A stretch of 64,000 nucleotides of DNA, from NCBI GenBank assembly GCA_018902385.1, contig JABSSW010000014.1, forward strand, positions 1-64,000. Direction: 5' to 3'. Positions 1-22,918 of this stretch are shown piece by piece. Numbering within the stretch: position 1 is the stretch's first letter; every line of letters starts with the position of its first letter. Both the position numbers and the translations under genes were made by a program. The stretch comes from Physcia stellaris. Its lineage: Eukaryota; Ascomycota; Lecanoromycetes; Caliciales; Physciaceae. A model generated the notes under the pieces. It was not told the DNA's origin and did no database searches. It saw only the letters and a program-made list of their open reading frames with translations.

Positions 1-325
1 TTGTTGTTGTTATTGTCGTTTTTTTTTGAAATTTTCGAAAAATGAAAAAAATCGTATTTATTATTCAAATTTTCGCATTTTTGTTTCGTTTTGTAAAATT
101 TGATTTAAAATACGAATAAATCATAAATCGATGCAATCAAAAATAATCAATTAATTTTTTCGTATCGTCGCATGTAACGTAAACACGATGAAATCGTTTT
201 TTATAATATTGATTTTTCGTAATATGATTCATAAAAACAAATAACGTTTAACGTCGAATTTTTAATTTTCAACAAAAAAATTATCGTTTTTTTTTCAATT
301 TTCATTTCGAAAATAATAATTTGTA

Positions 326-2520
326 TTAATAATTTTTAACGTCATCGATATTACGATATCGAACGATTAAACGTTTTTTTTTGACGTCGTAACGTAACGA
401 TCGATTTTTTAAATTTGACGACGAAAACATGAACACGTTCGAAACGTGCATCATTTTTTTTATTTTGACAACGTTGTTCAAATCGTCGTTGCAATTAATT
501 AAAATCAAAAAAAAAAATTTGATTTCGAAAAATCAAAAAACGACATCGTTTCGAAATTTTAAACAATCGATAATTGTGTTACAATCGATGATTGTGTAAC
601 AATCGTTGATTGTGTTGATTAATTCGATTTTGATATTTCGTTTTCGTTCGTCGATTCGAATTTTTTATTCGCGATATCGAACGACGATGAAATTGACGAC
701 GAAAACATCGAATCGTTTTCATCGTTCATGAAAATATTTTCATTTTTATTTGATAAATGATCGAATTGCGTTTGAATCGTCGTCGTAATCGATGTTATTG
801 CAAACATTGATTGCGATAAAAACGATAACAAAATCGTTGAAATTGATAATATTTCAAATTTTCGTCGATTGATTCGCACAAAAAAATACGACGATGAATT
901 GTCAATCGCATCGTCGTAAACACGCGTATCAATTCGATTATCGAACGTAATTGAAATATTGTGTTGTTCAATTATCGAATCAAAATTTGTAACGAAAACG
1001 TATTTGTTAAAAAAATATTCGAAAACACGATGCATGTAAATGCAATTGTCGTATGTTTTTTGATTGACGTTTGTGAAAATCATACAAACAATAAACAAAC
1101 GAATGTTCGAACATTGATTATATAAAAATTCAATTTTTCGATCGTTACATTAAATTAATTGTCATTTTTGATGATCATCGTACGCGTTCAACGAAAAATC
1201 ATTGAAAATTTGAAAAAATTTTTATTTGAATTAAAATAATTGTCAAATTTTGAAAATGCGTAATTTGAAAACGATTTTTATTTTCGAAATATTCGATGTT
1301 CATTTTTATTGTTGTTCGACGTAAATTCGAATATTTTTCACGAAATTACGTCGTCAAACGATTTAAAAATTGTTCATTATTAATCACGATTATCGTTAAT
1401 TTGAATTTCATTTATCGTCGTTTGATTGACAATTCGCGCGCAATTGTTGTCATAAATTATCGTTCGATCAGTCAATTGCGCATACAAATTGATTGAAAAC
1501 GAAATTATTTTACAAATGATTCAAAATTTTTCGATCATGTTGTTGTTGTCGAAAAATAAAAAAAAAAATGTTTTGTTGACGTTCAAATGATTTTATCATT
1601 TTTGTTTCAAATATTCATTTCGTACACGATTTGAAATCAATTTACGATGTTTGCGAAAATTTTTTTGATGATGCGCAATATGATTGTTTATTTGTTGTTG
1701 TTTAAAAAAAAATGTAATGATCAAATTGTTTGACAGAAAATTTTTCGACAATCGAAACGATATATTTGTTTAAAATTCAAAATTTAATTTTGATTTTGAA
1801 TTTTGTCAAAATCAATTATGCGTTTTTTGCGATTAATTTATTATATAAAATTAAACGATTTTTCACATTAATTTTATTAATTTTGAATTTTTACAATTTA
1901 ACGAATACAAACGTAAAATTGATCAAAATTTTTCTCGATTGATCATTCGCGTCAAACGAATTTACTGAACATTTTTTTATAAATTGTGTTTTATATTCTT
2001 GTATTCAATTTTGATTCAACGTTATAACTTTTTAAATTTGATTGTTTCGCGATTAAAATTGTCAAATTTGAATTTTTTATCGTTTTTTCGATTTTTTCGT
2101 CGATTTTTGTTAATTCGACGATTGTTTTTTTCGTTTTTATCGAAATTATTTTCGTTTTTTTTGCGTTTGTTAAAGTCGTCATCAAATTTATTCTGATTGA
2201 CGTTGCGTTGTTTTTTGCGTTGAAAATTTTTTCGTTGTTTGAAACGTTTCAAAATCACGTTTTTATCGTTTTCAATTTTTTGTTCGATTAAAAAGTTTTG
2301 ATTATTTTGAATTAAATTCAATACGAAATTTTGTAATTTTAATGTTGATGAAAATTTCATAATTGAATGTAAATTCGAAAACAAAACGATGCAATGTACA
2401 TCGTAATTTTTTATTAATTGATTGATTTTTTGTTTATAATTTTTATATTTTTCGAAATTATTTTTTTTTGTGAAAATTTTTTTGATGTTTTTTTTGAAAA
2501 AATCGACATATTTTTTTCAG
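326..2520 (-). pseudogene. possible degraded Ty1/copia-like gag-pol relic
   Basis: On the minus strand three open stretches (2,384-2,022, 1,098-619 and 508-326) follow one another and look like pieces of one old coding region. The piece around 2,400-2,022 has a pattern reminiscent of copia Gag (a short helical stretch, then a 'LLS.LP...STL..Q' like segment after allowing for CpY mutation) followed by a very basic tail. The piece at 508-326 faintly resembles the region after the copia protease. I saw no reverse transcriptase or integrase motif, so the class is a guess. It could equally be another repeat whose translation happens to look like this. Confidence 0.22.
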
Positions 2521-3963
2521 ATATTATTTTTTTTTTGAATTGTTTTTGATTTTAACATTTCATAATAATTGTGCAATAAATTTTCTTTTTAAAAAGATGA
2601 CAACAACAAAAAATTTAATTTTGTCAAATTTTTTTACGTAATCGTTCATTTGATTCATGTCGAATTGATTTTTCATTTTTCAAACGTATTGAATTCAATT
2701 TTTATAATTGTTTTTTGAAAATAATTTTGATTTGTCGTTCATTATTTTGATATAAAACGATTTTTTTTTAATGACAAAAATTTGAACGATTGAAAATGTA
2801 AATGTAAATGCATTTTGTAATGTTTTTATTCGAACATGTTGTTGTTGAATGTATGTTCGATATTTTTTCATAATGATATTTGATTTTGATAAATTCAAAA
2901 TAAATTCATTTTCAAAATTCGTGAAAATATTTATATGAATGAAAAATATAAACATGTTATATAAAACACATTTTATAAAAAAATATTTATCGTTTTCTTT
3001 ACAAAAAGTTTATTATCTTATTGAATTAAATCAATCTTGACGAAAAACATCAAAATTTTGATGCAATTTCTTCGCATATTGCACATTAATTAGAAACTTG
3101 ATATAATTTTTGTTTATGTAATCAAAGTTGTAAAATTCAATGAAAAAAATTCAATGTTGCAATATTCGTTGAATTTTTACGTGAACGCATTGAATCATTG
3201 AATTGCGAAATTTTGATCGTATCAATTTCAATTTCAACATCATATTAATTCAAACAAAATTTTTTTAAAAAAAACTTTCGAATTTATTTGTACACGAATG
3301 ATGTTAATTTGTAAATTATAATAATTATTAAAATGTAAAATTCAAGAAATGTGACATCAAAAATGTATAACAAAAATAATTGTATAATTAAATTAATAAT
3401 TGCAAAATTAATTATTTTTCAAATTTTTGTTTATATAATCAATCAATTTGTTCAATCGTACACATATTTCGAAATTTATTCGAAAATATGAATTCGTTGA
3501 ATTCAATCGAAAATTTGATGTTGACGTGATTAAATTGATCGTTTTCGTAATTTATCGAACTTTTTGATCGAATTGTTTGATATAATTTTATCGAAATTCG
3601 ATTCGTAATGTTTTGTTGATTTGAAATCTAAATGTTTTACAAATAAATACACGTCGATTTCGATGATTGAAATTTTTCGTTGATTGATAATGATTTCATA
3701 CGATGTATGCGTTCGTATTGATCGAATTTATTAATTCGTTTCGTTTATTTGATTTGTTCGAATCGTGATATCGTCAATTCATTTCGAAATTGATTTGCAC
3801 GAATCACATAATTCATATGAAAATTGTATTGCATTGCAATAATGAGTTTCGAAATCATCGCGAAATTTTTCGTCGAGAAAATCTTTCATTGCTTATCGAC
3901 ATAAAGTTTAAAAACGAATTATGCAAACTGTATAAACGTTATAAATTGACTTTTTAATCATTA

Positions 3964-4390
3964 AGCAATGAATAACAGTATTTAAATCGATTTTAAATCA
4001 ATTAAATCAATAATATTAAGTATTTAAACAAACGTGAAACGTCAAAAGTCGATAATCAATAATAGAAATTCGACGTTGATTGTAAAAATCTCAATTAAGT
4101 TTAGCGTTTTCGCGTTTTTTGATGTTCGTTGTCAAGAAAAATCAAGAAAAAATAACGAAAAGCGCGTAACGACGTCGTTATCAACGCTATGAAAAAAATG
4201 ATTTTATTTTTGAAAAATTCACGTATTTTTCACATAGAAAGATGTTATTTATGATATAATACGTGTATCATACATTACATAACAATTTTGTTATTAAATA
4301 AAAAAAAAAAAAAATCGACTTTTGACAATTAAATGACTCACATATTTAATATTGTTGACTTAATTGATTTAAATCTTGTTATTCATTGCT
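3964..4390. mobile_element. MITE-like inverted-repeat element inside the AT-rich block
   Basis: Positions 3,964-4,053 and 4,314-4,390 are imperfect inverted repeats. The outer ends read AGCAATGAATAACA and its complement, and the inner ends GTCAAAAGTCGAT and ATCGACTTTTGAC. The 260-bp centre has no coding sequence and contains a 15-bp A run. CT and AG dinucleotides are frequent here (roughly 3,840-4,520), unlike the saturated DNA on either side. So this is either a later insertion or a segment too short to be mutated. Target-site duplication could not be defined. Confidence 0.5.
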
Positions 4391-5336
4391 CAAAGTTGAT
4401 TCAATTGACTTAAAATCGACTTAAATACAGTCACTTTTAATTCAATGTTACGAAAAAACAGTGTTTTTGACTAATCGACTAATCGACTCGAGATCGAATT
4501 TAAACGCATAAATCAATAAAAACTTTTTCTCGACGTCACAACATGAAATTATGTAAAATGTTTTTATTATTGATCAAAACGTATAAAACGAAACGTTGAT
4601 TTGTTTGTAAAACGAAATTTGTTTTTCATACGATCGTGAAATTCGATTGTTGATTCGTCGATTGCATAATGATTTTCAAAAATAATAAACGAAAATAATC
4701 GATTTTTGAAAAACATTCAAAACGATTTCGATTTTTCAAAATCATGATGCATTATTATATAACATATATTGATTAAATTCAACGTTCAAATGACGTTTAA
4801 TGATTTGATATCGATAACGATTAAATAATAATTTGTGAAAAAATTTTTGAAATCAAAATGATTGAATTGTTGCGTTTTTTGAAAAATTTTGAATCAATTG
4901 AATGCATATAACAATTCATTGACGTAATTTCATCATAATGAATGTATTTGATTGATTTTTAAAATATAAATCGTTTGATTGATATAATGAAACAATAAAT
5001 CGAATATCGATTGCAAAAAAATCAAATCAATTGAACGAATTTTCAAAACGTTATATAAACGTGATGCAATTTAAATGATCGATGAATAAATGTAATAAAA
5101 AATATATAATCAATTTCAAACGTTTAAATGATTTTTTTTTGTTTTAATACAATGAAACGTCGTTTTTTCGATTTTGAAATGAAAACGTTTGCATTGACGC
5201 GTGTTTTCATTTTTTTTTGAACGATAATTAATTCGAATGTTAATTCAACAAATAACATGATGATTTTATGATGTAATAAATTTGATTCAGACGATTCAAA
5301 CGACGTCGCAATGATCAAAATAAATATATTATTGAT

Positions 5337-6617
5337 AAAGTAATCGTGATTGCAGATGAAAAGAAGAAATCACGAAATAAACACGCTAAATTTCACTAAT
5401 TGGCGGAGGGGATGACTCCCTTTTTTTAGTTAAAGGTCTACTTGAACCGAGGCCCGAGGCCACCCCTACTAGCGCCGTGGGGGTGCTCTGGTCGCTAATT
5501 TCTAGGCGGCGTCCGGGCGCTAAAAGGAGCCAGCCTTACGAGCCTCCACCAGTGCATGGGATAAAGTACTTAGGGACCAAAAGATGTCTGAACTCTGGAG
5601 ACGAGACTTGTCTATGGTCATTGTCATAGCAAATGGGAGACATCTAAGCCGTCTACTAGAGCAATCAACCGTAGGCTGTGACGTGCTCTAAGCTTTCAAT
5701 TATAAATGTTGAGAAGCTCGAGCAAATCTGGGATCGACATGGCAAGAATGGACATGTAACGTGCACACGCTTTTGAAATGCTAAGTCTCAATCAATCCTT
5801 CCATCAGCAGCTCTGAATAAGCGACACCCGATACCCCGAGATGCCAAAGACTATGCAGGTACGCACGAACTCCTTCCCATGACGGTGAAGTAAATTGGGG
5901 CTGGGGGCTATCCTTCGAACGCCAATCCTCTCGCCGAATATCTCAAGATCTTAACAGGTCACTGGTTTATTGACTCTCTGAATGGTCAAGTCTCGTGGGT
6001 GAGGTAAATGGACCGAAAGGGCTTCTGAGATCTGAATGTAATCTGGAAAACAGGACGATCGCAGGACAAGTCTGCATTTGTAGATGAATCTTGCTACATG
6101 TTGAACTAAGACATCACGGAGGTTCTCAACACTTTCAGTCCTGTTCGGACTGTAGATACCGCATGGTGTTGGATGATAGCATGTTTCGAGGAGCGGACGC
6201 TGCATGATAATCCTTACGGGATGACGGATAACAGGGCTGCTCTTCTTGTGCTAGGGACATGAAAGGATTTGTCTAGAGATTAATTGTGTTATTCTAATTA
6301 CCATTGACGCCCAATATTCGCGTGCTAACAATAGCTCTTCTACCTCACCTTTTTCAAAGAAGTGGATTAGAGAATCGTTATTAGATTTGCGAGACTAGCA
6401 CATGGCAGGTCAGCAACCATATTTTCCAAGAACAGGTGGCATTCAGCACGATCTCTTCGAGGATGCATATTCGCAGCGTGAAGCATTGACGTGGTCAACA
6501 CTTATTCTCGCTGTCTTTCAGTTGACGTTGTGTCAGCTCTGTCTGTCGAAGAACTTTGATAATTATGCGGAGTAGTGGTCAATTCATGCCATGGAAGAAC
6601 AGGTTCGCACTGACCTC
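5337..6617. other. gene-free interval with GC-rich edge
   Basis: The composition returns to normal at the edge of the AT-rich block. A GC-rich patch lies at about 5,450-5,560. A minus-strand open frame at 6,205-5,951 (84 codons) is not recognised and has no partner exon that I could find. It may be a gene relic. Nothing else is supported. Confidence 0.4.
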
Positions 6618-8866
6618 TTAGAATTGCTCTGCGTAATCTGCCTCCACCCAACCAACAACCTGGCCTTTATAATACACCATGAATTCCAATGTCGCATTTC
6701 CCAGTCGTATAATCAATTCGAAGGTGGCATCTCGGTACTTTTGTTTGTTGCTCGAACTCTTATAGCTCTTCTCCATCCACAGTGTATCACATGCAACAGC
6801 CCAGTTGACTGTACAAAGCGGACGGACAGCTGCAGAGCATTGTTGAGTGAGCTTTGCAGTAGGTATTGTAGTGTGATCAATCTGGAACTTACTATTTGTC
6901 TTCCGAGTGGGAGCCCGGGGTTCTTCGGTGTAAAATAGCTCCGATGAGAAATGCCGCAGGCCACTGTCCCGCCAGCTAACTTGTACGGTGCTTCTTATAC
7001 GTGTATTGAGAAAGCGACCTTCTTCAATTTCTTCGCCCTAGGTAGACGATTATTGTTCGCGGCATAAACTGACGGTTTTCATCCAACACTCACCTTATGC
7101 AAAAGCCACCGCATCTGGTTATTAGCATAATAGGTCGACTTCGCCTCGTTAAAAAATCGGTCTTGTACCATGTGCTGGCTCGGGTTCCAGGGTAAGGACA
7201 CCGCGATACCATAACTATAGCGGGATAATCTTGACACGATGGTGGGCTTAGGCTGTACGGATACGCCACCAATAGTTGCTGTTAGCTCAGAATGTTCTAG
7301 GCCCCAAAGCGTTGCCCCACGGCAGATTGACGACCATCTGATCCGGTTAGACCTATTGAAGATTGAATTCTCGGAGACTTTATTCACTCACGCTCCGTTC
7401 ACTTGCATTATCTGCACACCGTCCCGACTGTGGCTCTTCTCCAGGCGATCATAGAGATATCTGCTCTCCCCAAATCCTCCCACAAGGAGAACAGACTGTG
7501 TCCTAGTCAGTTCACACCAAGACGAGATCTTCGAAGAATGGAATTTACCTTGACCTGGAGACCTTTATCTGAGACTTCCGCAATTTGTTTCCGAATAAGC
7601 TCTTCGATTTGCAGAAAGATATAGTCAAACACTGTACGCAAGGCATATCTTGCGCTCGTCAATATTCGATCCATTCATGTAAAGATGGGAATTGGCACAC
7701 TTTTTGACCGTGATTGTATCATCTATTATGCCATTTTCGGGGTCATCTTCTACCCCTCTGAGGTCCACGGAATAGATCTGATCACTCGTTTCGCTAAACG
7801 TTCGTTTTATACCATATTCGAATTCTCTCATCATCTTCTTGCGATTGGTCTCTTTAATCCTATTATACTGAACTTCACCGATCATAGTGGAGATATGCTT
7901 TTGAAATGCCGCGTCGAGGAATACAGAGCCACAAAGCCCGCCTATGTGGGACCATAAGTCAGTGTTTAATGACTCAAATTACGGGCGCTTACCATCACCA
8001 ATAGCACACTCTTTAACTCTCAAAGGAGCAAGACCCTCAACTTTGTAGCTGATCAGGTCCTAGAGACCCATCACTGAGTTTAATTATCCTTTCTTAGGTC
8101 ATGCGAGATACTTACAACTGTACCTCCTCCAGCGTCACAGACCACAAAGGCATCACCAACCTGGAAGCAACGGTCAGATCAACCAAAAAGTGCTAGACCT
8201 TGCCCAACGGGCGGAAACATACTTTAAGACTGCTCTCTTCATCTTTATCTTTGAGAGTAGCAAGTGCTGCAGCTTCGGGCTCCGTCAACAGTGTAATGTT
8301 ATCTGGCATGTTTGCTAGCTTCGCAGCCTTTCGAGTTTTATCCTTTGCCGCTGGACTCCACACAGCTGGGACCGTCAAGATAATCCTAATCGCAAAAATG
8401 GACTCGTAGTCGGGATGGAATTTCCTTATATCATCCTTCGTGTACTCCCACAAGAGTCTCAGATAATCACCGACCACTTCGTACGGTTTTTTGTTAATCT
8501 TTTTGAGCAGTATGCTCGAGTCCTTTACCGGCTCCACTGTTGTGACGTATTTACTGTCTTCCTCGAGAAGAATCTTCATCCACTTGAATGAATCATCCGT
8601 CAGCCCGACAGTATACCCCCATCTTTGCGGAACACCATTAACATAACAGATTGAAGAGGGGACTTTGTCTTTTGAAGCATTTTGAGCGGCTGGATCAGGC
8701 CAGTTATTGATCAGTCGGATCACTTTGGATCCTCCATTCACCGCCCAGGACACGCCTGAGTGCCTAAAGTCTCTTAGTAAGGCCCGTACAGGTTTCTGCA
8801 CTTACGTGGCACTTACGTGGTTCCAAAATCGATTCCAACAACAATCTCCGAGCTTCTTCCACTCAT
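6618..8866 (-). CDS. Hsp70-like ATPase, HSPA12-type fungal family
   Basis: This is a cytosolic Hsp70-type ATPase of the divergent HSPA12-like group, which is expanded in filamentous fungi; substrate unknown. Nine exons join in frame to about 608 residues: 8866-8817, 8763-8223, 8160-8116, 8059-7993, 7941-7701, 7648-7549, 7495-7392, 7352-7094 and 7037-6618. The actin-fold motifs are all present: phosphate 1 loop GIDFGTTHSGVSW near the N-terminus (split by intron 1), VVCDAGGGTVD (phosphate 2) and LLVGGFGES (adenosine loop). The C-terminus is the short beta-rich segment typical of this group, not a full peptide-binding lid. The start is the only ATG before the first ATPase motif. No stop or frameshift remains after splicing, so the gene looks intact. 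It diverges from the GTPase at 9,440 with a 570-bp shared upstream region. Confidence 0.85.
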
Positions 8867-9439
8867 GATATCTTCTGTCGTGGATCCTCTAGAAGGGCGG
8901 ATTACGTCTGCTTGTGAGCACGTCAATTGGTGGATGCTGGGGGAACCTGGATGGCCAGGATGGAGGAAGATTATTGTGCGCTCTCGACTGTGCGATGGTA
9001 CGCTCGTTCTCCTCCGGGACTTAATGTTCGATATGCAAGGCTGAAACACCCAGCGAGGAACTTCGGACTAAAGATTGGTCCACAAAAGCGGCGGCAATAC
9101 GCCGATCTCAGCTGGCAATGTATGTCAGCATTTAGTCCGTGGGATAGACGATAAAGCAAGAGTAGTGCGGGTGAGAAATTGTCTTCCACACGATTCCATG
9201 CGCAAGCTCTGCAGCCTCATGTAGAAGCCGAGAAACCCTCACTGAAAGGCCCAGACCTTTCGATCAGCGAAACCCGTGCAGGTGGGTCAGAACAGGACGG
9301 ATGCGTAGCATCTATTGTATTTCTCTTGAATCCGGCGGGTCCTTGGAAAAGCCAATTTAAGTGATATTGCCAGCGTTTTTCAGCCGAAAAAGATTCCACA
9401 GATCATTGAGACGAAAGTAACATCAATCTATCGATCCCA
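8867..9439. promoter_or_regulatory. divergent upstream region of Hsp70-like and GTPase genes
   Basis: This 573-bp interval separates the start codons of two divergently transcribed genes and must hold both promoters. Open frames crossing it are short and overlapping, and I see no conserved product. No clear heat-shock element (repeated GAA/TTC triplets in alternating orientation) was found by eye. Confidence 0.45.
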
Positions 9440-10527
9440 ATGGCAGAACAGGAGGTGCTAAGCATGATTCTCGTGATGGGTGTGACGGGCGCTGGCAAAA
9501 GCTACTTTATCAACAAACTCGCTGGTACGGACATTGTCAAAACAGGAAGCACATTGGACCCATGTGACTCGTTTCACCCGTCTTGATTTCATTCACTGCC
9601 GCTGAACTCCGTATAGGTACAGCTAAATGTGAAGCCGTGCCCGTCGAGATCGGTAGAAGCAAAGTTCTTCTGGTCGACACTCCTGGCTTTGACGACTCTG
9701 TACGATCGGATTCCGAGATCCTGACAGAAATATCGAGATTGCTTTCAGCACAGTACCAGGGTGGTGTCAGTCTCAAGGGAGTTATCTATCTACATCGCAT
9801 CACAGACATTCGCTATGCTGGCTCCCAGGTCAAAACCCTCAATATTTTTAAGAAAATATGTGGAGACCTAGCTCTGACCAATGTGCTACTCGTGTCGACT
9901 AGGTGGCACGAAGTGGACGAAGCAGAAGGGGCGAGTCGCGAGCAGCAACTCCGTGAGAAATTTTGGGCCTATATGCTCGGCCATGGATCGACCATGGCGC
10001 GATTCTATGGTAACAGAGACTCTGCAATTGGCATTGCAAGTCAGCTTGTCAGCAAAAGGAGCATAATTCTGGAGCTTCAGCGAGAACTCGTTGAAGAGGG
10101 TAAGACTTTGAAACAGACAGCGGCGGGGTCATTCGTCAACGATGACTTGACCGAACTGAAAGCGCAGCACGAGGCAGAGTTGAAGGAAATTGAGCAATTA
10201 CGACAGACGCTTCGAGATAATGATCGAGCTATGAAACGCCAAGTTCAACTGGACTGGCAACGGGAGCAGCAAATACTTCAGACTGCGCAGGAAGACCAAG
10301 AGCGTTTAAAAATCAACATAGCTGCCCAGGTGCGTGCAGAGATCGAGCAAAAGCAGGAGAAAAAGAAGCGAAGTGGTCTCTGGAAATCGATCCCGTTGTT
10401 GCCCATGTTGCTTGGCATTGTCGAGATGTTTGTTGGTATACCGCCAGGTTCGACGTCTTTGCTAACCTCATGGCTTTCCGGTTCAGGTCTAACCGAGTCC
10501 ATTTCGCAGTTTTTCGACAATTTCTAA
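9440..10527 (+). CDS. AIG1/septin-like P-loop GTPase with coiled coil and C-terminal hydrophobic segment
   Basis: Two exons (9440-9563 and 9623-10527) give a 342-residue GTP-binding protein; intron 9564-9622 starts GTGACT and ends TACAG. The G1 motif GVTGAGKS lies at about residues 13-20, G3 is DTPGFDD, and STRWHEVD sits where the G4 (N/T-K-x-D) motif belongs, so it is non-standard. After the G domain comes a long Gln/Glu/Arg-rich coiled coil (about residues 200-285). A hydrophobic stretch (SIPLLPMLLGIVEMFVGI) near the end could anchor it in a membrane. The fungal family is usually annotated as a 'G domain' or AIG1-like protein of unknown role. An ordinary paralogue of a dynamin or septin is unlikely given size and motif order. 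Confidence 0.8.
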
Positions 10528-10969
10528 TAGCCCCGGAGACCGGGAGCCTCGGAGGAGGTGGCACAAATATAGGCCAAGATTACATACTCTCGATAGGCAT
10601 TGGTATCTCGAGCTTGTGATTGCGTTGAATCCTGCATGTACTCATTCCCAAACCTCCAATAATCATGTGCTGAACGATCTCGGAATCTATAGGGGCGTTT
10701 AGAAGAGGGGTTCACGCCACCTCGAGCCACCAATTGGTGGATGAAATTGGTGTGGTTGTACAAGACTCCGCCCGAGTCAGATCGGTAGTCCAATTCGGCG
10801 CCCCAGAAAAGCAAAGTATCGCTGCTTTAGCTAGTGGAGGTCTGAGCCATTGTGCCCACTGATCGTACCAGCTATCGAGTGATCGAGTCTCATCTTACGA
10901 GCCCCAGACAAATATTTTGGTTTTCATCCAAACGACGAAACTTGTGAATTAGCACTTTCAGCTTCCAGA
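10528..10969. other. intergenic, no gene seen
   Basis: The interval holds only overlapping short frames. The minus-strand frame 10,814-10,524 overlaps the end of the GTPase gene and has no recognisable domain. Confidence 0.4.
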
Positions 10970-12787
10970 ATGTCGTCAACCATGAATGATGGCATGACTA
11001 GAAAGGGCCAGAGTTCGCACCGTGGAGACGCAACCTCAGGCTACAACAATGAGTCTCGCGCCCAAGGGTCTATGGATCATCCCGACGAACGATCTGTTGA
11101 TAAGCTTAAGAAGAATTCTAGAGCCGCTCCAAGCCCAGCAGCTGTGGGTGTTGGCCCAGATATCGACTTTCAACCATCTTCAGTCAAGAGAAGCAACTCT
11201 CATGGCCTGGAATCATTTCGGACGTCCAAACCTTCCCTTCCCAGGCGCCTTGACAATGACTGCGGACATGTCTCCGACCTAGACTATCGAGACCAAGGCG
11301 CGTCACGGCCAGCGGAAGCGGTAAGTCGCAATGGTAGATCGGGGGGACGTCGTACCGATACGAGGCAGAAATCAGAACGAGGTCGGTAAACTCGTCCTTG
11401 AAGTGCATGGGGTCCACACTGATAGCCGTGAGCAGATGTGATGTCCTCCAAAAAAAGCGAGCGCTGGTACAAGGTAGATACCTTAAATTATCGCACCTCA
11501 CCAGCCGAGGATGACCAGTATTGATTCTTGCAGTCACCTTTGATACGGAATGTCCGCGATGCTGTAATTGGAGAACCATACCACTCTTATCACGAAGAAG
11601 AGAGACGGGAGGCACAGGAAGACCATTACCTTGCAGATCTGGAAGGGCATGTCCGTATACTCGAGTCGCAAATCACTGGATATAAGCAAACAATCCAGGA
11701 GCTTCAATCAGACCTCGAGGCGGAAACGCAGAACACCAAAGAGGTTAAAATTTCAGCAAACAAGATGGCTTATGCCCTGGAAAACAAGGAGCTTTTCGTT
11801 GGACGGCCAAATAGTGATGATTTTATCTTCGGCGAATACCTGGCGCTGATGAACCAGATCAAAACCTGGTCAGCATCGTTTGCTCACGGGCCACCTGTTG
11901 ACTGCCATAACCTCCCCTCCGATGTTGCTCAAGAGGTTCACGCGGTGGCACCTGCTGGTTTAGGCTTCCTGCAGACTCGGAAAGATCTGAGGCTGATTGT
12001 GCGTGGGTACGTGGGATTGATGTTACAGAGTTGTATCTTTCGTGTGCTCCTGTACAAGCCTCAACGAAATACGTATGGGAAAGACATCTGGATGGACAGC
12101 GCTTTAGCAGACCATTTCTCGCAGATCGAAAACAATCTGTTTGACACGAGTAAGTGGGTCTTTCCGAGTTGCACATCTAAATCCACGAACGTCGAACCAT
12201 ACTTAAAATCTAGTATAGACGCAATATCCGACCATCAATTCCACGACTGGAGAGCACTCACTGCGACGTTGATCTCAAAGCAGTCTGGTTCCAGTAGAAC
12301 TGGAAAAGGTATGGAGTCCCACGTGACAAATTGCGGCCTCCAGATTCTCGCAGTTGTTGGGCGGTGGGCGTCAGAGGAGAAGCACGAAGGCTTGCGCGAG
12401 GGTCTCCAGTCCATTATTTTCCAAGCAGTGAAGCTCTCGCAGATGCTTCGATGTCAAAGAGCCAGTTGGTCCATCCGCAATGCTGAATTGACTAGCGACC
12501 ATGGGACTCTTGTCTTTGACGAGGCCACCATGACTGATAAGCAGGGAGAGGAGGAAGAGGATGAAAACTCTAACGCTAGGACACCATACCGGAAGACCGT
12601 GGAAATCGTTGTTACTCCTGCTTTATTCAAGCGTGGTAATTCGGATGGAGAGCGCTATGAATTTGAGACTTGTATCGAACGTGCGGAGGTCAAGTGTCGC
12701 CCTATGATCATTGCGCAGCAACCGCCTCGCGAGACTTTGATTAATCCGGCGCGGCGGATTCCAGGGGATTTGATGACCACACGATGA
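10970..12787 (+). CDS. conserved fungal coiled-coil protein of unknown function
   Basis: Exon 10970-11320 (117 codons, polar and low complexity, Ser/Arg/Asp rich) joins exon 11534-12787 through a 213-bp GTAAGT...TTGCAG intron. The predicted protein is about 535 residues. The second exon begins with a coiled coil (roughly residues 125-190). A globular domain follows with the signature LMNQIKTWS and a later LIVRGYVGLML segment. I know this pattern from many Pezizomycotina hypothetical proteins, but not a function. A further in-frame intron may lie near 12,150-12,220 (GTAAGTGG...TATAG) that would remove a poorly conserved stretch. A Glu-rich patch at about residues 455-460 is followed by a basic C-terminus. 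Possibly nuclear; that is inference only. Confidence 0.7.
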
Positions 12788-13974
12788 GACTTTTGAAAAT
12801 GCAAAATGTTCGGTGTCTATATCTTCCCTACAATGTGATTACTCATGGCCAGAATAAGTAGTGAACCGCTTGCCTTTTGACATACGTTAAGTTAGAGACG
12901 ACAAATGATTCGAAGTACGCAGCAATTATTCGCTGCTTTTTGTGTGTATTTCCGAGTATTGTCTACACGGCGAAGGACTTGCGTGCACCATACTGAAGAA
13001 ATAGAAATGAGTGAGGAGGTAGGTGCTGGTCTAGAAGCTGGTTTCGCTAACCATGGTAGTTTGGCTGTCTGCTATGCTAGTAAGCTATTCTCGGCCTAGG
13101 GAGGCCCCAGGAAATGGTAGGTGCGGTTTGCCTCGAACACCACTCCATGGGCGACCCTGATATTTTTCAGTCTGCTTTGGCAATGCAGATACGCAAGGAG
13201 AGACATTTTCGAAAGCATGGTTCTGTGTCCGACCATGTGTTCCCATCATTCTGAAGATTTGCTTACTGGGCGATCTGATGGCAGCATTTTGCGGCTGACT
13301 TCTTAGAGACTGCCTGGGAAGATCTCTTGGAGGTAGGGGATCAGAACTGTAGGATGACTGCCACTGTTATCATTGAATCTGTCTATATCAATAATTCCTT
13401 CCGAAGAGTTTTAGAGCTGTTATGGAACGTTCTCCCGTCTTCATTGGATCCCCTGTACCAAAGCTATGCCGAGCGTAGGCTTATCGACCTCAGGAAACTG
13501 CTCGCCAGCTCGACTTGAGGACTCTAGTGAAGGGTCTTTCCGGATATGGGTTGCAAGCGAGACGAAGGCCATTCACGGCTCGGGGAGTTGCTGCTGGTGG
13601 AGATAGCCAGTGATCTGGCATCGGACAAGCCTAGTAATTGCCTCCAGGTGATAAACATCGCTGCCCGCACACAATCGCTTGAAGTGCTGTGCCCTCGAGT
13701 AGTCTGTCCCACAAAGTAGGCTCCTCGGTCTGACCAGAGTGTGGGTTGTTGAGTGCCATTGCGTGATCAACCAATATAACCTGAAGCTCATGGAAGTAAG
13801 GAGCGCTTTGCGTGCGACTGGACTTGAGCCATTGCAAAGGTGGGTAGACTGGAATTACGCGTCCAACAGGAAGCTAACGCACTGACGCCGCTCCTAGATT
13901 TGCCACGACGCGGTATGTGGCAGCTCTATGCCTCTTGGTATTCACTGATTATGAATCGTTGATGAAAAGCACAC
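12788..13974. other. gene-free interval
   Basis: The interval holds several plus-strand frames of 60-65 codons (12,905-13,099; 13,121-13,306; 13,327-13,518). The last one is the most protein-like but has no recognisable motif, and I could not build a spliced gene from them. It may be a remnant. Confidence 0.35.
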
Positions 13975-16298
13975 TCAACCATTTTGGACGCCCATTCCCA
14001 GCCCAATCAATTCAAAGAGTATGGGATTGCCCTCAACAGCTATCCAAGCAATACCTATTTCTGTGTAAGCGTTGTTACGAACTGAACATCAAGATCGTAC
14101 CAGTATAGACGATCAACTTTGTGATGACTTCAACGTCGTACCGTACCCTAGGCTTTTCCAGCTTCGAGAACATTTCGCGGTCCTCTCTGTCATACTCTCT
14201 CCGGTCTTCACTAGGTCGACGAGATGGTGTACTACTAAGGGTGATTGGTGTGAAAGGAGTACACACAGCAGTCTCAGCTCCCATCATTTGCTTGTACAAG
14301 TCCACGTCTGACATGGCTGGGGTGGGGAGTTGACCAGACATGGGTATTCGCGACATTGTGGCTGATATTGCTGTTTCGGGAGTAAAATAGCCGGATGGAT
14401 TCCCTTTTGAATGAAAAATTCAGCTTGATCCCTTCTTAAGTTAAGATCAAATGATGAGTTCAATGTCCACGTATGGAGAAGGTGACACCAGCCATGGAAA
14501 AGACTTGAAGCATGGACAAAAATACCAGCTTGCTGGATCCCCTTTCCGCTGGATCGGGGACTCGCTGACCAGTTGATTTTTTTCAAGACATAAAGTGGTA
14601 ACGCTTACCTTGATTATCGCGTTCCTCCACCAATTTAGGCCTTACCAGCGCGACTTCTGATAGGCTCTCTCTTCGGCGCTTCTCCCGGTATGCGAGAGTT
14701 TCGTAAGCATCAGCCTGTGACTGCGGTCCCATGGATACAGATCGGCTCTTCCTAGGGTGGCGCATTGACGTCCATAGAGAGGGGATTTCGGAGACGTATG
14801 GAATGACGTTATCGTCTTTGAGATCCGTAGGTACTTCTTTGTACTCACTGATGATTAAAATGTCAGCTGTGCCACAACCGAAAATGCTGGAGCCGACTCG
14901 GGAGATTACATATCCCATTGTAGACTTACGAAGCCTGTTTGAAAAACCTTCTGGGTAGATTCAACCCAAGGCTTTCCACAACGCGGAAGACGGGTGGTAG
15001 CACTTTCAGCAAAGTAGGCTTCATGAACTCTCTCCAGGCGAAGATCACCACAACTCCAACCACAATTCTCAAGGTAGCTTTTGGCCAACCTATTTCTTCT
15101 AGCGAAAAGGGCGCAGTTGCTGGCACAGGGTAATCCCATGAGTACCCGCTCCTGGCATGATGCCAATTCCCAAGCTCGACGCCAATCGTGACGCCTGCGA
15201 ATGCGACGCTATCGTCAAAGCAAGGGCAATCATCTGGAATCGATTCAGAGTTAGCTCGTCCACTTCCAGTCTACAAAATTAAACATCGAGTCATGAAATA
15301 TCATGTTGGCTCGCTCTTTCCCAATTAGAGTGTTTAGCAAATGCACATGCACATGGGCAGGAAAAGAATTGGTACCGGAGTTCACATACCAGCAGGTTCA
15401 GGATGAATACGGACGAGGACCAATGTTATCAGAACCACGATGAGAAGTGGTTTGAATGAGCTGGCATGAATGAAATCGTCGAAGTTGTCACCGTAGAGAC
15501 ACTGTATGGCTGAAAGCAGAGCCCCGAGAGCTGTGCCCACGGAAACGTCCAGAAAACCATGCATGCCACAGTAAATTCTTCCTAGAACGATGGATGTCAT
15601 GTACGCATATGACGCAACCTTTAAAGTAATTGACAGCTTAGGATCGATGTTGCTTTCCGGCGAATTGAGGAAAAATAGAGCGTATACTGCGACGGATGCA
15701 GCATTCGTGGAGTGAGTTGAAGGAAAGCCGTACTCGAGACTTGCACTCTTGGAAAGAGTGATACGGTTCAAAGGTGGAGAGAGCGGGCGAGGGATGCACA
15801 GCAAGTCCTTCAGAAAGCCGCTGAAGAAAACACCAGATGCCAGGATATGTACCATGCTAAAATGCCTTCAACGCCTGCTCGATATGATTGAAGCGGGAAC
15901 CCTACCCTCTACCTAAGCTTGTATACCCACACCAGAAAAGGATGGGCAGAACGATCATGAAGAACGTATGGGTGCCTAAATTAGCTGTAATCGAGAAGTA
16001 GGAATCCAGAGCTGGCGAGCGCATGAGATTTTGCAGCGCAGCAAGATACGGCGTCTCCCAGCGAACTAGGGGAATGAGCTTTTGTCGAGGGATATATCTC
16101 CATCTTGGCAGCTTGTTCTTGTCTTTTACATGTCAGTGTCATTTCATGCGGAACGCAGGACAGCTCACAATGGTCTAAGCTTCTCAGTCCAGCGTCAAGC
16201 TTTTCGATGCGGAGGGTTAATGGGGTTGGGCATGGCGACTCGCGTTTCTTGCCTTCTTTCGTTGCACCATTACTGGATCCATGAAATGAAGAGCCCAT
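13975..16298 (-). CDS. LCB3: sphingoid-base-phosphate phosphatase (PAP2 family, Lcb3/Ysr3-like)
   Basis: The enzyme dephosphorylates dihydrosphingosine/phytosphingosine 1-phosphate in the ER membrane and so feeds ceramide synthesis. Seven exons join in frame to 568 residues: 16298-16169, 16122-15906, 15856-15390, 15233-14930, 14847-14609, 14370-14101 and 14054-13975. The three PAP2 signature blocks are visible: KDLLCIPRPLSP (K-x6-R-P), YGFPSTHSTN (P-S-x-H) and GRIYCGMHGFLD (S/G-R-x5-H-x3-D). Multiple hydrophobic segments surround them. The long C-terminal tail (after the intron near 14,850) carries VPTDLKDDNV and EKPRVRYDVEV motifs typical of fungal orthologues, then a last hydrophobic helix ending in VEGNPILFELIGLG. 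The gene is complete. The start ATG at 16,298 was chosen because the preceding frame lacks an ATG. Confidence 0.9.
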
Positions 16299-16595
16299 CA
16301 ATAACCGGACACGCGAACATTGGGTCGAGGTGTCTGTATCGTCGACATCGCGTCATCCGAGGCATCCTCCATCGTTATGACGGTCAAATGCCAAGATATG
16401 TCATCCTGCGATAAAGCTAAGATAATCACCATGCCAACGTTCAAAGTCAATAACCGAACTCATCAATTCTGGCAGATCCCTTCCACCAACCCACAGCTTC
16501 ATTCGTGTGTGCATATTTTTGAAGTCGCTCAGGAAGTGTCTTTGTTGGATTAAGACCAGCACCCGATCGCATATACTATCTGGCATCAACTCACA

Positions 16596-17556
16596 ATGTC
16601 TCAACCAAACACGGAGAACTACGATTTCCTCCGCCGGGGGCGCTCAGTGAAGAATGACTTGGGACCATCGCCTGGCTCAATATCTCCACGACGAAGACCT
16701 CTCAGGCATCAGAGCCATCGAAGCAGTCATGGTACACTCAGTACCGCAACGAGCAACTCAGCAATGTCTGCGGCTACAAATATAACACAGCCACCTTCGT
16801 TTTCGAAGAAGTTTGTTGTCGTGGGGGATGGTGGATGTGGGAAGACTTGCCTTTTGATAAGCTATAGCCAGGGTTACTTTCCAGAGGTATGCCAGCCCAT
16901 CTTAGGACTTAGAATGATCATTCTGACGATGAGCAGAAATACGTACCTACCGTCTTCGAGAACTACATATCCCATACTACCCACCAACCCACCGGCAAAA
17001 CCGTCGAGCTAGCACTATGGGACACAGCCGGTCAAGAGGAATACGATCGTCTTCGTCCTCTTTCATACCCTGAAACCGACCTGCTCTTCGTCTGCTTCGC
17101 AATTGACTGTCCCAACTCCCTAGAAAACGTCATGGACAAAGTAAGCCGCATTCCTCCGCATCTTGCCTAGGGTAATCCATTAACTATCCTCAGTGGTATC
17201 CCGAAGTCCTACACTTCTGTCCAACAACCCCTCTGATCCTCGTCGGTCTCAAATCGGACCTTCGCACCAAGCGCGCTTGCATAGAGCTCCTCAAAACTCA
17301 AGGCCTGACACCCGTCACACCGGAACAAGGTCAAGCCGTCGCAAAACGAATGGGTGCTATGTACGTCGAATGTAGTAGTAAAGAGACCCAAGGCGTCGAT
17401 GAAGTCTTCGAGCTCGCTGTCAACACCGCTGTAGGGCAGGAGATAGAGCGGAAGAGGGAGCGCGACGCGCAGCAGCAGCGAATGACAGCCGCAAGCCCAA
17501 TGGGGTTCGGCGGAAAGGCGAAGAAGTCGAAGAGGAAGGATTGCGTTATCCTTTAA
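16596..17556 (+). CDS. rho4: Rho4-type small GTPase
   Basis: This Rho-family switch GTPase takes part in septation and actin/cell-wall control in filamentous fungi. Exons 16596-16886, 16937-17140 and 17194-17556 give 285 residues. The protein has a long Ser/Arg-rich N-terminal extension (about 70 residues) characteristic of Rho4. Then come G1 GDGGCGKT, switch [11 protein letters not shown]3 [14 protein letters not shown], the G4 region LVGLKSDL and G5 ECSSK. The tail is polybasic (KKSKRKD) and ends in a CVIL CaaX box, predicting geranylgeranylation and plasma-membrane or septum targeting. SDL replaces the usual N/T-K-x-D as KSDL, within the range for Rho proteins. All three introns' borders are GT-AG and in phase. 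Confidence 0.92.
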
Positions 17557-17858
17557 GGGGGTTCGTTGCTGGCATTGGCTGGTGGTTGCATGTAAATGGT
17601 GTTCAACGGCCGGATATGAGTTCTTTGCATAGCGCTTCTTGCGGGCTTTCCTCTGCTGTTGGAGACGTCCATTCCTGTTATCTGTTCCGTGGAGTATATT
17701 TTGGCGCATGTTGCGCGGAGAGTGTGCATATCCGCTTGACGGCAGACGTTTGATATTTACTTCTTGACCAAACCGTTCAACACTCTTCCCAAGCCTCGCT
17801 ATCAGGGTATAATCCAGTCCAATGCGCCCAACGCCAGCGTCGAGGCGAATCATCTTCA
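17557..17858. other. convergent 3' region of rho4 and dad1
   Basis: About 300 bp separate the two stop codons. No gene or clear terminator structure is seen. Confidence 0.4.
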
Positions 17859-18331
17859 TCATCTCTTTTCTCCAATGACGGTCTCCTCTTGCTCTTCGTC
17901 CTGCCCATCGCCTTCTCCCTCATCTTCTTCCCCTTCAACCCCCTCCCCACTCTTTTGGTTTCCCTCCCCCTCATCCTTGGCCATCACATTCTCAAACTGA
18001 CTCCACAGCGCCTCGACAGCACCGAATTCATTCCCGACCTATTTTCCCCCTCAGCAAACTCCCCCTTCCCCCTCCACTCATCATTCGACGGGAGAACCTA
18101 CAGCGATAACCCCCTCCAAACTACGATTCAGTTTATTGATGTTTTGGAGCACAGATTCCATACTCTAAATACGTTAGGTGCCCGTTCATTCTCGTGTGCT
18201 GGGGCGGGTGGAGAGGTGGGAGGGAAAGGGCATACAGCTGCGATCTCAACTAGCAGCGCGGCGCGTTGTTGTTCGAATGAGGGGGTGGCTTTGGGTGGGT
18301 AGTTGGTGGAGGGAGCGGTGCGGGTGGACAT
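17859..18331 (-). CDS. dad1: DASH complex subunit Dad1
   Basis: This is a small subunit of the DASH/Dam1 complex, which couples kinetochores to spindle microtubules. Three short exons are needed: the first from 18,331 (Ser/Thr/Pro-rich start, then [14 protein letters not shown]), the second encoding [20 protein letters not shown], and the third starting [18 protein letters not shown]. The introns are GTATGC...TTTAG and GTAGGT...AATAG. These three blocks in this order match the Dad1 family. The C-terminal tail after the conserved core is long, acidic and rich in Glu/Gly. The gene is tail-to-tail with the Rho4 gene, about 300 bp apart. Larger open frames on the plus strand here are overlaps without homology that I recognise. 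Confidence 0.85.
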
Positions 18332-18453
18332 TTTTGGGCATTGAGAGGAAGGGCAGCTTGGGATCTACTCGTGGTATTTTCGGGACTTGATATGATTGAG
18401 ATTGGAGATGGGATGAGGGAGAAAATGTTTGGGGGGGTCCTTTTGATAGGGTT

Positions 18454-18788
18454 TTCTCGATTTCGAAACGCTTGCGACTCCTTGGCAATTTTTTTTTACC
18501 ACATTACCCGCATTTCTTTCAACGTTCAATTTTCAACTCAATAAAACTCAACAACAACGTGTTCAAATCGTTCAAAAACAACAACAATTGTTTTGTGACA
18601 TGTATACGATCACAATGATGTAAATTTGTATTTCAAAATCAATTTTTGATCGAAATGATAAAATTGAGCTCGTTGAACTCGGCGAATTGTACAATCAGGG
18701 TTAGGTTTGTGAAATAATCTTGGTGAGAAGCGGGGTAATGTGGTAAAAAAAAATTGCCAAGGAGTCGCAAGCGTTTCGAAATCGAGAA
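18454..18788. mobile_element. MITE with perfect 58-bp terminal inverted repeats
   Basis: The arms at 18,454-18,511 and 18,730-18,788 are inverse complements over about 57-58 bp with at most one gap. They start TTCTCGATTTCGAAACGC, pass a nine-T run, and end near CCACATTACC. The 218-bp centre is non-coding and relatively AT-rich, with many CA and few CT dinucleotides. Total length is about 335 bp, typical of a non-autonomous TIR element. I could not define a target-site duplication, and the superfamily is unknown. It lies just upstream of dad1. Confidence 0.8.
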
Positions 18789-19318
18789 TTGCTGGCCAGG
18801 CACGCTACTCAAGCCCTATCAAAATATGTCAAGTGTGGAAATATACGGAGTACTTGTTCAACACTTTTCGACATCATCAACACAGTAGATCCACATAAAA
18901 CCTGCTCTTAGAGTCAGACTAAGTCTAGATCGAGTTTCGCAGCGTAGACCTATCGAGAAGCACCTATACTTGAATAACACAGTGCATCAGGATCCTCGTG
19001 CTAGGGCCGAGAAAACACAGTCATGATATCACCCGAATATTTGTATCACCATTGACGCTCAAATAGCTCTACTCGGATGGGTAGAATTCACACTACGCTG
19101 ATTCGACCTGGGCAAACCGAGCACTGAGATGACATGAACACGTGATAGCCCGTCTTTGGCAAGGAATTCAGTCTCAAAGATCTTTCATACCGTATCGTTA
19201 CATTCATTTACTATTGTCCCGAAGCAGGCTATCACCTTATCATCGTGCTTCACTTGCCTTCAGTACTCGATCTTCTCCGGGGCGAGTGGTTGTGCGGCCT
19301 ACGTTGAAGCGCGATCAA
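18789..19318. other. intergenic, no gene seen
   Basis: This is ordinary sequence between the MITE and the small gene at 19,319. It contains no frame that I can support. A plus-strand open frame from 19,142 runs into that gene and might encode an N-terminal extension. Confidence 0.35.
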
Positions 19319-19595
19319 ATGGCAACAAAACCCCTATTCTCCAAAGAAGCCTACAATTCCGTTAGTCCTTTGTCAGGTATGCCAGTAGAGTGCAGCTGTT
19401 GACATCTGATAGATCCTCTCGAACCTACGAAACACGAAGGCGGTATGGGGTGAAGGCAGCGTTCAGTATCAAGCTTCTAAGGAGATAGCCGAGAGCTATC
19501 TTTCGGACTTGATGCACAGTGATCCTACCTCCGATGTTGTAGACGAGCTCCAGCAAGCACTAGAAGGGTTGAATCTCGATATAGAAAAGCGATAA
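19319..19595 (+). CDS. small conserved fungal protein, unknown function
   Basis: Exons 19319-19360 and 19413-19595 encode a 74-residue protein beginning MATKPLFSKEAYNS and ending in an acidic amphipathic helix (DELQQALEGLNLDIEKR). The intron is GTTAGT...GATAG and removes an in-frame stop, which supports the model. An upstream in-frame extension from 19,142, rich in Arg and Ser with few acids, could be a mitochondrial presequence, so the protein may be up to 133 residues. I do not recognise a named family. Confidence 0.55.
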
Positions 19596-20024
19596 TGCAA
19601 GGAAATCTACCCAGATCTTCATGCATTGCTTATGTGCAAGCACCTCATCGGATGGACTCTGTGATAAGTATGAGGAAGATCTTCATTCGTTGCGTATGTG
19701 CAAAATCCTGATCACACCGTGAAGCAAAGTGACCGATGCGAATCCGTCCCTCCTGGATCGCCCACTCAGCTAACGCCGCAAGCTCCAGTGTCCCGGCATG
19801 AACTTCGTGGTATAGTAACGCCGTTTGCTCTCAAAATCCACTAGAGATAAAATGCCTGTACAAAACTCCCTCCGTCCCGTTCCGTTCCGTTACCTCTTTC
19901 CTCTTTGATGCCCAGTGGATGCAGGGTTTCAGTGGATCTCAGCGGATTCCAATACCGGCTAACGGACCACTCCAGCTGACCCGAAAGCCCTCATAAGACA
20001 AGGTTGGATATGGTTAGAAACAGC
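19596..20024. repeat. intergenic with an imperfect direct duplication
   Basis: Two related segments, about 19,613-19,650 and 19,675-19,712, share AGATCTTCAT...GTTG/GCTTATGTGCAA...CTCATC/CTGATC. They are 62 bp apart. No gene is seen. Confidence 0.4.
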
Positions 20025-21375
20025 CTATTCTATGAGTGGCTTTCTCGTCGTTCCTACCATAGTCATCCCTAACGTATGTAAGGCGTTGTAGTCATTGAGC
20101 TTCACAATTGTTGGTGCTGGCAACATTGGATTGTCGGGTCGAACACTGGCAGCGTCTTTGGCTGCTTGCTCGATGGCTTCCATTTCCTCTTTGCAGCCAG
20201 CGTGGTCCAGCGGACAGACGACGATGGGCTGCCGCAAGAGGATATCCTTCGCTGAAGTCATGTGGGCCTGACGAGGAAACTCAGTCTTCTGAGTACAGAT
20301 TTGAGATAGGCCATGAGACGTACCTTTACAGTCAAGAAATATTCAATTTTGTACAAGCTGCCCGTAGTCGTGAAGCCACTCACAGAGTACATGGGAAAAG
20401 CCTGCTTTCCCCGGGGTATAATGCCATCGCTATCTCGTACATCCTTTGCCGGAAAGACCAATCCAAGATTCGTGAAATATCCGGCCTCCGGCATCCTTAC
20501 GCCTACAGTTTGCGTTTGCTTCGTTAATGTTTTGACCTTCTTTTGTGGTTCGTCGCCTTCGTGGTTGTAAGTTATCTCCTCATCGATGCCTATCGTAATC
20601 TTTTGTATTGTAACCCTCTTTGCCTTGTTCAACCAATCTGGATTTGGGGATAGTTTGATGTAGACGCTGACAGGATCCAATGGACCGTATGACCACCTTG
20701 GTAACGATATGCCCAATGTGACCAGGTGATCTGATATTTGCTCTGCTGACTCTGGACGGTTGTACATTCCGAACGTTGATAGTGTGTCATATCTCGATAT
20801 AGGTACTGGGAAAGGATATTTTTTCTGCTCTGATTGACCCTGCTGGACCATAACCACCATCTCGTAATATGTCTCGGCTGTTCTGCTCGCTAGCTGCAAG
20901 CTTGCTGGAGGCACCCTCCTTGCAGTCTCGTCGCCTCCTCTTCCGAATGGGATGAATATAACAAAAGGCAGATCCATGGTGTAAACCTGCTCGGATTCTT
21001 TTCCTGCAGGGCATCGAAACAGCAGCATTTCCTTGCCCACTATATCCGTAAGCTCTTTCCTTGGAGCGGCGAGATGCTTCTTCGTTACCGAGTCTGCGGA
21101 AGGATGTATGGTTTCGCGCCGCTGCAGGCTTATTGTTACCAAGGATACGGACACTGGAGCCGATATTCCAGCATTGGGCCTGATTTCGACTTTGCCTTCT
21201 ATTCGAGGCTGTACGAACACGTGGGGTTAGCAAGAGCCTATAGACAGGAATAACTCCTCCGGAAGCCTCATATTCCGGACGAGAGTTCGACGCTTACCAG
21301 GGTGGCCGATATGCCTGGATAGCCCACCAGAAAGGCACCATTTGGAGGGCCACAGACGCGGACAAAGGCGGTCAT
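20025..21375 (-). CDS. arrestin-domain protein
   Basis: Exons 21375-21298, 21208-20324 and 20267-20025 join to 401 residues. The arrestin N-like fold is suggested by beta-strand-rich blocks (FVRVCGPPNGAFLVGYPGI, KVEIRPNAGISAPVSVSLV, LPFVIFIPFGRG) and by a second half with VSVYIKLSPNP and a C-terminal YKIEYFLTVK strand. Fungal proteins of this kind recruit ubiquitin ligases or act in signalling. No PPxY motif is visible here, so an Rsp5-adaptor role is not supported. The final exon includes a Pro-rich loop and ends TRKPLIE. All introns are GT-AG and phased. It is transcribed away from the cyclophilin gene. Confidence 0.7.
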
Positions 21376-21842
21376 TGAGGCTCGCAGCTGGACTTAGCCA
21401 CCCCACCACATTCTTCAACAGCTCGCGATGCTAGCGCATCCACGGAAGCAGATTTGCAGTGTTTTTCGATTTGCGATTCGGCCAGCGACTCCCGATGAAT
21501 TTGGGGTACTCTTTTTGTTTCGCAGAGTGAACAGATTTGGGTAGCAAAGAAAGCAACAGCGAGAGTCAGCGGATGGGCTGTCTATAAGGTCGGAACTCAA
21601 TCATCGGGTGGTTAGGAGTTGGGGTGCCTTTGGCAAACAAGTCACTGGTGATGATGAAGGCCATTAATCAGGCCGCGAATGTCTAGATTAGGCGGCGCTT
21701 GGGCCAACCCCACCCTTGACACTTGCACTCCGCACAGGGCTGATCTAAGGTACAGCTACTCCTAACAATGCATTGGTTTCACGACAAGGCGATGTAGGAA
21801 TGCATTGCCTGCATTGGATCATGAGGCGAACCATTCAGCGAT
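21376..21842. promoter_or_regulatory. divergent upstream region, arrestin-like gene and cyclophilin
   Basis: 467 bp lie between the two start codons. The region presumably holds both promoters. I see no gene and no motif that I would name. Confidence 0.4.
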
Positions 21843-22403: not shown

Positions 22404-22918
22404 ATGGTGGTGCTCGTGCAGCGCAAGACGAAGACTAAAGTACTCATACGGCATTCACAGATTTACGGGTAGATAGACTTGAGAGAACGACACACTTGGT
22501 TCACTGTGGGACCACTCAAGCTTTTCGACTTACATGGATGATTTTCCTAATTATGCTGACTATAACGAGTCGCGTTTTACCAACGATCACCTTGACCGTC
22601 AACGCTTATGCCTACTCGATCTAGGAGTAAGAGCATGCCAGCATAAGCTTTGTGAAGATATATTCTGCAGAAGGCCATACTCGCTGATTGAGATCTTGCC
22701 GGTATTGATATATACTGGCTATCGTCGACATGTATCCCATACCGCCAATATCTACGACGCAGATTCTTTTTTACAATGCCTCCTTAACGCCACCATCCGG
22801 GTATGCCCATTTTCGTATTGAATGATAAGCGACCCCCTTAAATGTAACTTGGTCTATAAATTCAAGCAGTTGCTGCCTGTGTTTTCGGAAAATTCTGCGA
22901 TGGTGGAAACACTTGGAA
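22404..22918. other. convergent interval, no gene supported
   Basis: An open frame at 22,534-22,821 (plus strand, 95 codons) is not recognised and lacks supporting splice or codon evidence. The rest is short frames. Confidence 0.35.

Follow-up and report, generated by a model that had tools for sequence, protein, structure and literature searches.

A RIP-like process mutating repeats of Physcia stellaris in the context order CpC > CpT >> CpA, CpG

Repeats in this genome (44 Mb in 147 contigs) have been altered by a RIP-like process that mutates cytosines in the order CpC > CpT >> CpA, CpG. The window analyzed here comprises positions 1-64,000 of contig C14; the LTR retrotransposon lying at its start was probably killed by a mutator that resembles RIP, is directed at repeats and depends on an unusual 3' context. 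The direction of the mutations, their dependence on the 3' base and the small influence of the 5' base were all established by aligning one retrotransposon family to a little-mutated copy.

Positions 1-1469 of the window contain no CT, CC, AG or GG dinucleotide, confirming what the first-pass annotation had read from the sequence, and the counts expected from composition were 72, 24, 71 and 28, respectively. When this stretch was shuffled 10,000 times, the four dinucleotides together had a mean of 195 and a lowest value of 156, against 0 in the real sequence. CA, TG and CG, also described as common, were indeed plentiful (68, 85 and 118), and the CpG observed/expected ratio was 4.57. The TpA/ApT ratio was 0.48 and the substrate index 1.03. 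DNA free of CC and GG extends well beyond this run and a second block of the same kind exists; therefore, the run at 1-1469 is just the cleanest portion of something larger (Table 1).

Both blocks of the window are made of multicopy repeats, the first with short gaps, and the two CC/GG-poor areas coincide with them, the tracts ending within about 200 bp of the repeat borders. At the edge at 5414, the number of CpY dinucleotides per 100 bp jumps from 12 to 37. The second area almost without CC/GG covers 48269-53351, and its two CC/GG-free runs (48269-49524 and 49735-53351) flank an insert of 237 bp; on the left side of the block, mutation tails off across some 200 bp of DNA flanking the repeat, and on the right side it does so about 200 bp inside the repeat. 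The insert has an 85% match on contig C38, directly adjoining a match to the retrotransposon family called family 2 below, and from its sequence it looks like a solo LTR of that family. It would have been spared either as a later arrival or as a piece too short for sensing. HET, NACHT-type/WD40, ZPR1 and GH71 genes were found in the window, a set that would suit a filamentous ascomycete; a HET-domain gene (28219-30315) and a large gene (58454-62206) combining an NPHP3_N domain with WD40-like repeats are probably of the heterokaryon-incompatibility kind. Rfam and tRNA scans of the 64-kb window gave no matches.

Table 1. Repeat blocks, mutated tracts and control DNA in the 64-kb window.
Feature	Position	Strand	Evidence or remark
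Longest CpY-free run (no CT, CC, AG or GG)	1..1470		Within retrotransposon remnant; dinucleotide count
CC/GG-free tract	1..5402		Ends just inside the repeat-block edge at 5414
Family 1 LTR retrotransposon, 3' part, truncated by contig start	1..1897	+	22 genome matches (self included); blastn against 12 longer copies
Family 1 LTR, 183 bp	1713..1895	+	91.8% to 5' LTR of the complete C23 copy; end of a 92.9% match to the C23 3' part
Hypermutated repeat of a different family	1993..2963, resuming 3291-3647		Matches of 83-94% identity
Nested hypermutated repeat segments; right edge of first repeat block	3642..5414		Repeat matches and CpY step at edge
Gene-bearing control DNA between repeat blocks, without signature	5415..48387		CpY/CpR = 1.00
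Hypermutated repeat, left part of second block	48388..49507		Long matches, 74-95% identical
Insert in second block, 237 bp, not hypermutated	49508..49744		GC 0.43, 49 CpY (computed on 49509-49745)
Hypermutated repeat, right part of second block	49742..53426		Long matches, 76-95% identical

The element at the start of the window belongs to family 1, which has a complete copy on contig C23 that is about 7.15 kb long, is bounded by LTRs of 183 bp and contains a reverse-transcriptase match (C23:659587-660033). The signature was observed in 13 copies on 12 contigs, i.e., the window copy and 12 other long copies of about 1.9 kb each, in which we counted 0-3 CC+GG, 5-72 CT+AG, 220-246 CA+TG and 120-143 CG. 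The position of the feature at a contig start might suggest a quirk of base composition or an assembly or sequencing artefact, an explanation whose probability we consider negligible given the 13 copies on 12 contigs, the existence of graded copies and the signature-free DNA neighbouring the feature on the same contig. In the columns of the family 1 alignment that still keep a C, 83% of the cells read T at CpT, against 17% at CpA and 10% at CpG. The C/T-variable columns (n = 378) were distributed as 167 CpA, 129 CpT, 79 CpG and 3 CpC. We read CpA as the commonest variable class because CpC and most CpT had already been lost in every copy, and this count, taken alone, would be misleading. The old copies do show a weak loss of CpA, and the context is a strong bias, not an absolute rule. 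A hypermutated family 1 copy on contig C42 holds about 1.5 kb of DNA with a GC content of 0.41-0.56 and rich in CC/GG, lying in an insert flanked by repeats of about 176 bp that are 81% identical; this is presumably a later or unsensed insertion.

Family 2 has little-mutated copies, and therefore the direction and context of mutation could be measured in it. The search for it gave at least 30 match rows, with 26 of 353 candidates scored: one copy had a normal composition over 6 kb, a second was 96% identical to it, and the remainder were 81% identical or lower. The copy of normal composition served as the yardstick to which copies on contigs C1, C95 and C5 were aligned, over 3.5 kb each, and the context rates thus describe three copies of one retrotransposon family. 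In the fully mutated C1 copy, C had become T at 474 of 483 CC sites (98%) and 363 of 438 CT sites, compared with 28 of 457 CA and 12 of 455 CG sites. The half-mutated C95 copy showed the same ranking, with changes at 384/480 CC (80%), 190/432 CT (44%), 12/458 CA and 8/457 CG, and the C5 copy, 96.8% identical to the yardstick, gave a background of 18/483, 15/439, 10/457 and 8/455, respectively. CpA and CpG in C95 were at this background (p = 0.83 and p = 1 against the C5 pair). On the hazard scale, and with confidence limits included, CC exceeded CA at least 31-fold and CT exceeded CA at least 11-fold, while CpC was mutated faster than CpT with an odds ratio of 5.1. The 5' base had a small effect at CpC (0.85 for ACC, 0.81 for CCC, 0.76 for GCC and 0.79 for TCC), and the +2 base had little influence on the rate. 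C-to-T transitions on both strands predominated, as in RIP in the broad sense.

These alignments, in which CpC and CpT are the major changes, support the proposal of the first-pass annotation, a RIP-like mutator of cytosines that prefers a pyrimidine on the 3' side. That proposal would have failed had CpA-to-TpA been the main change in repeat alignments, and this was not found in the one family aligned. The pyrimidine preference stands; the wording 'strict' CpY context was too strong, because CpT lags behind CpC and the fully mutated C1 copy has also lost some CpA, slightly more than the little-mutated pair (28/457 versus 10/457, p = 0.004).

The C1 copy carried 877 C>T/G>A changes against 34 other substitutions, a disproportion that indicates a burst and no clock; the two signature-free copies differ by 51 and 60, respectively, and C95 had 594 against 44. 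In C95, the changes were arranged in strand blocks, where one strand was 6-26% mutated and the opposite strand 71-85%, and none of 2000 shuffles was as extreme. No strand blocks were detected in C1 (682 of 2000 shuffles as extreme) or in C5 (1633 of 2000), since the former is saturated and the latter unmutated. The blocks of C95 look like the trace of an enzyme moving along a single strand, and strand-biased tracts are a feature of Neurospora RIP. They are a poor fit to independent single-site decay, and so weigh against slow deamination, in which CpC and CpT methylation of silent repeats, by a DIM-2-like enzyme or another, would decay over time with no burst. We regard this reading as unlikely, although a DIM-2-like enzyme is present in the genome, Neurospora DIM-2 favours CpT according to the available part of a review (PMC13297926), and the weak extra loss of CpA and CpG in family 1 could be such a slow process. 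With 98% of CpC changed against 34 other substitutions in 3.5 kb of C1, the C-to-T changes did not keep step with other substitutions, and in Zymoseptoria it is CpA, not CpY, changes that Dim2 promotes, as stated in the portion of PMC8016269 at hand.

Canonical CpA RIP was rejected, with CpA changed at only 12/458 sites in C95 and 28/457 in C1 and no AT-rich window passing both RIP indices, and MIP as in Ascobolus, i.e., methylation without mutation, was rejected because mutations are present. A related possibility is that classic CpA RIP had run to saturation and left only CpT and CpC looking active, an artefact of comparing heavily mutated copies. A CpT 'dominance' has been reported where CpA was already depleted, e.g., in Copia elements of Colletotrichum truncatum with a TpA/ApT of about 1.6 (PMC6180176, in the text available). 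Here, CpA and TpG are kept, with a TpA/ApT of only 0.48 in positions 1-1469, and CpA is at background in the half-mutated C95 copy; saturation is contradicted for family 2 by the alignment and for family 1 by the retained CpA, and we give it almost no credence.

Mutation in the window is bound to repeats, as a homology trigger would have it, yet a family 2 pair escaped. These two copies (C12:57500-63500 and C5:1163700-1169709) are 96% identical over 6 kb and 96.8% over the aligned 3.5 kb; one has a normal composition and the other shows no CpY excess over that 3.5 kb, whereas the other two relatives examined were heavily mutated. Therefore, not every repeat is at present a target of the mutator; the pair may be recent arrivals, may come from another strain, or may have escaped or been shielded from the mutator.

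The breadth of the signature was assessed in 605 windows of 500 bp, taken from 33 stretches and the 64-kb window after eight were dropped for N; this sample amounts to 308 kb of the 44 Mb, mostly around repeats. Among the 388 sampled windows with a GC content below 0.35, 379 had a CpY/CpR below 0.35, the other nine lay at 0.40-0.59, the median was 0.05, and CC+GG was zero in 353. The 208 windows with a GC content of at least 0.40 had a median CpY/CpR of 1.00. The loss of CpY thus tracks repeats, in line with the first reading, and an equal depletion of CT and AG in unique AT-rich DNA, which would have spoken against that reading, was not found in this sample, which lies mainly around repeats and holds little single-copy AT-rich DNA. 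None of the 388 low-GC windows passed the canonical two-index RIP call, and 27 passed the substrate index alone, bearing out the expectation that standard RIP indices are blind to such DNA.

Stop codons pointed the same way. At 150 scored reverse-transcriptase places out of 527 candidates, we counted 250 TGA, 33 TAA and 3 TAG stops, with 10 places free of stops, and ten DDE_1 transposase matches had 44 TGA, 3 TAA and no TAG. The excess of TGA fits CpY mutation, because on the opposite strand this turns TGG into TGA and yields no stop from CAA, CAG or CGA. A CpA process is excluded by these stops, since mutation of CAA and CAG would give TAA and TAG; a CpG process, which would turn CGA into TGA, is excluded by the alignments instead. 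From their stop codons, numerous further retrotransposons, and DNA transposons in some cases, appear to have been mutated likewise. The DDE_1 transposons with the same stop spectrum also speak against an APOBEC-like cytidine deaminase editing retrotransposon cDNA, as do the mutation of both strands and a context that is set by the 3' base and depends little on the 5' one. The targets measured by alignment are all LTR retrotransposons, and the C-to-T changes in a CC context resemble those of APOBEC3G; even so, such editing seems very improbable.

A search of the genome for PF00145 gave four matches, which were read as three genes, one DIM-2-like and two RID-like. The DIM-2-like gene, on contig C3, is an open frame of 1118 aa carrying a DNA methylase domain together with a sub-threshold BAH match, and its product matched PDB 9bap, which we take to be Neurospora DIM-2, with an E value of 4.6e-188. 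RID/Masc1-family methyltransferases, which RIP calls for, are represented by the two RID-like genes (C6:791557-792528 and C5:498855-499792); these share 40% identity across 174 aa of their catalytic parts, and the former has FCGGGG at the place of FSGAGG in the latter. The RID label was assigned from known motifs, the PF00145 match, the mutual similarity of the two genes and their difference from the DIM-2-like gene. Stops inside the catalytic parts are probably introns, one of them at the same position in both genes, and the domains are apparently intact. A single Pre-SET match (C37:394263-394601) may mark the DIM-5 histone methyltransferase, and the genome also has a MAT alpha-box match. It is plausible that a changed RID or DIM-2 enzyme lies behind the altered context. 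The set of one DIM-2-like and two RID-like genes, the latter ending without a long tail behind their catalytic domain, gives a hint of resemblance to Botrytis and Sclerotinia (PMC2432034 and PMC4352252, as far as their available text goes). As those two fungi likewise have two RID homologues (PMC2432034, same portion), a pair of RID-like paralogues is not unique, and the second paralogue is therefore only a candidate.

In the following comparison, the cited papers are represented by the parts of their text that were available. The process resembles canonical RIP of Neurospora crassa in that C-to-T changes fall on both strands of repeats, are dense and strand-biased, have edges near repeat borders and accompany RID-family genes. 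It differs in context, the Neurospora order being CpA>CpT>CpG>CpC (PMC5496416) against CpC>CpT>>CpA,CpG here. Trichoderma reesei also departs from the Neurospora order, with CpA and CpG about equal, then CpT and then CpC, and so the dinucleotide least used there is the one most used here (PMC5496416). RIP is directed to CpA in Leptosphaeria, to CpA and CpT in Magnaporthe, Botrytis and Sclerotinia, and to CpG in others (Amselem et al. 2015, PMC4352252). The second group shares the mutation of CpT with our genome, but there CpT goes along with CpA and the available text names no CpC signature, whereas our genome puts CpC first and spares CpA; basidiomycetes and truffles share a non-CpA context, but their target is CpG, which is the best-preserved C context here (PMC4352252). 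Dim2 of Zymoseptoria tritici is likewise a case of C-to-T changes in transposons, linked there to a DNA methyltransferase, and it acts on CpA and mitotically, in contrast to the CpY, burst-like changes of our genome (PMC8016269).

Changes at CpT and CpC have been recorded before. CpT-to-TpT is the dominant form in RIP-capable controls (PMC7882544), and short rDNA repeats of Stagonospora nodorum have high CpT-to-TpT and no CpA RIP, a case in which the authors doubt RIP; their tool already counts CpC changes (PMC2621366). In Monilinia, CpC-to-TpT double mutations occur alongside CpA RIP (PMC8959702). Among the matches listed in the PubMed Central RIP literature, including PMC5555474, PMC10998396, PMC4188875, PMC3017866 and PMC5148876, the text available describes no CpC-first, CpA-sparing process, and Clutterbuck 2011 (Fungal Genet Biol), an earlier survey that several of these papers cite, could hold a precedent. 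CpT-rich RIP is thus already known, and a CpC-led, CpA-sparing form was not found in these portions of the literature.

The signature works like RIP but fails on CpA, and we therefore regard it as a variant of RIP and not as canonical RIP. The mutator converts C to T where the C precedes another C, which is fastest, or a T, about three times more slowly, and essentially spares C before A or G. It would act premeiotically, on DNA recognised as duplicated. Either of the RID-like DNA methyltransferases would be the actor or, with lower probability, the DIM-2-like enzyme, and the target site of the enzyme at work may have been altered to read a 3' pyrimidine. On balance we favour a RIP of inverted specificity, which may extend to a lineage of filamentous ascomycetes. 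In it, a member of the RID family, possibly the second of the two paralogues, would recognise a pyrimidine on the 3' side (CpC>CpT) and discriminate against purines by a factor of about 30 or more.

A survey of 1,239 fungal genomes concluded that a CpA preference is common to RIP-like defences (PMC12543289, in the portion available), and this genome contradicts that preference as a general rule. CpY mutation makes stops mainly from Trp codons, and it inactivates genes by a route other than that of CpA RIP. The RIP indices were negative in all 388 low-GC windows despite the change of 98% of CpC in C1; therefore, other cases may have been called RIP-free. If RIP of inverted specificity is indeed at work, fungal RIP would be undercounted by surveys that rely on CpA indices, and the choice of dinucleotide would be a trait of the enzyme's target site that can evolve. 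Since no catalysis by RID has been detected in vitro, according to the accessible part of PMC13297926, a natural process with the opposite context would offer a direct handle on how RIP chooses its target.
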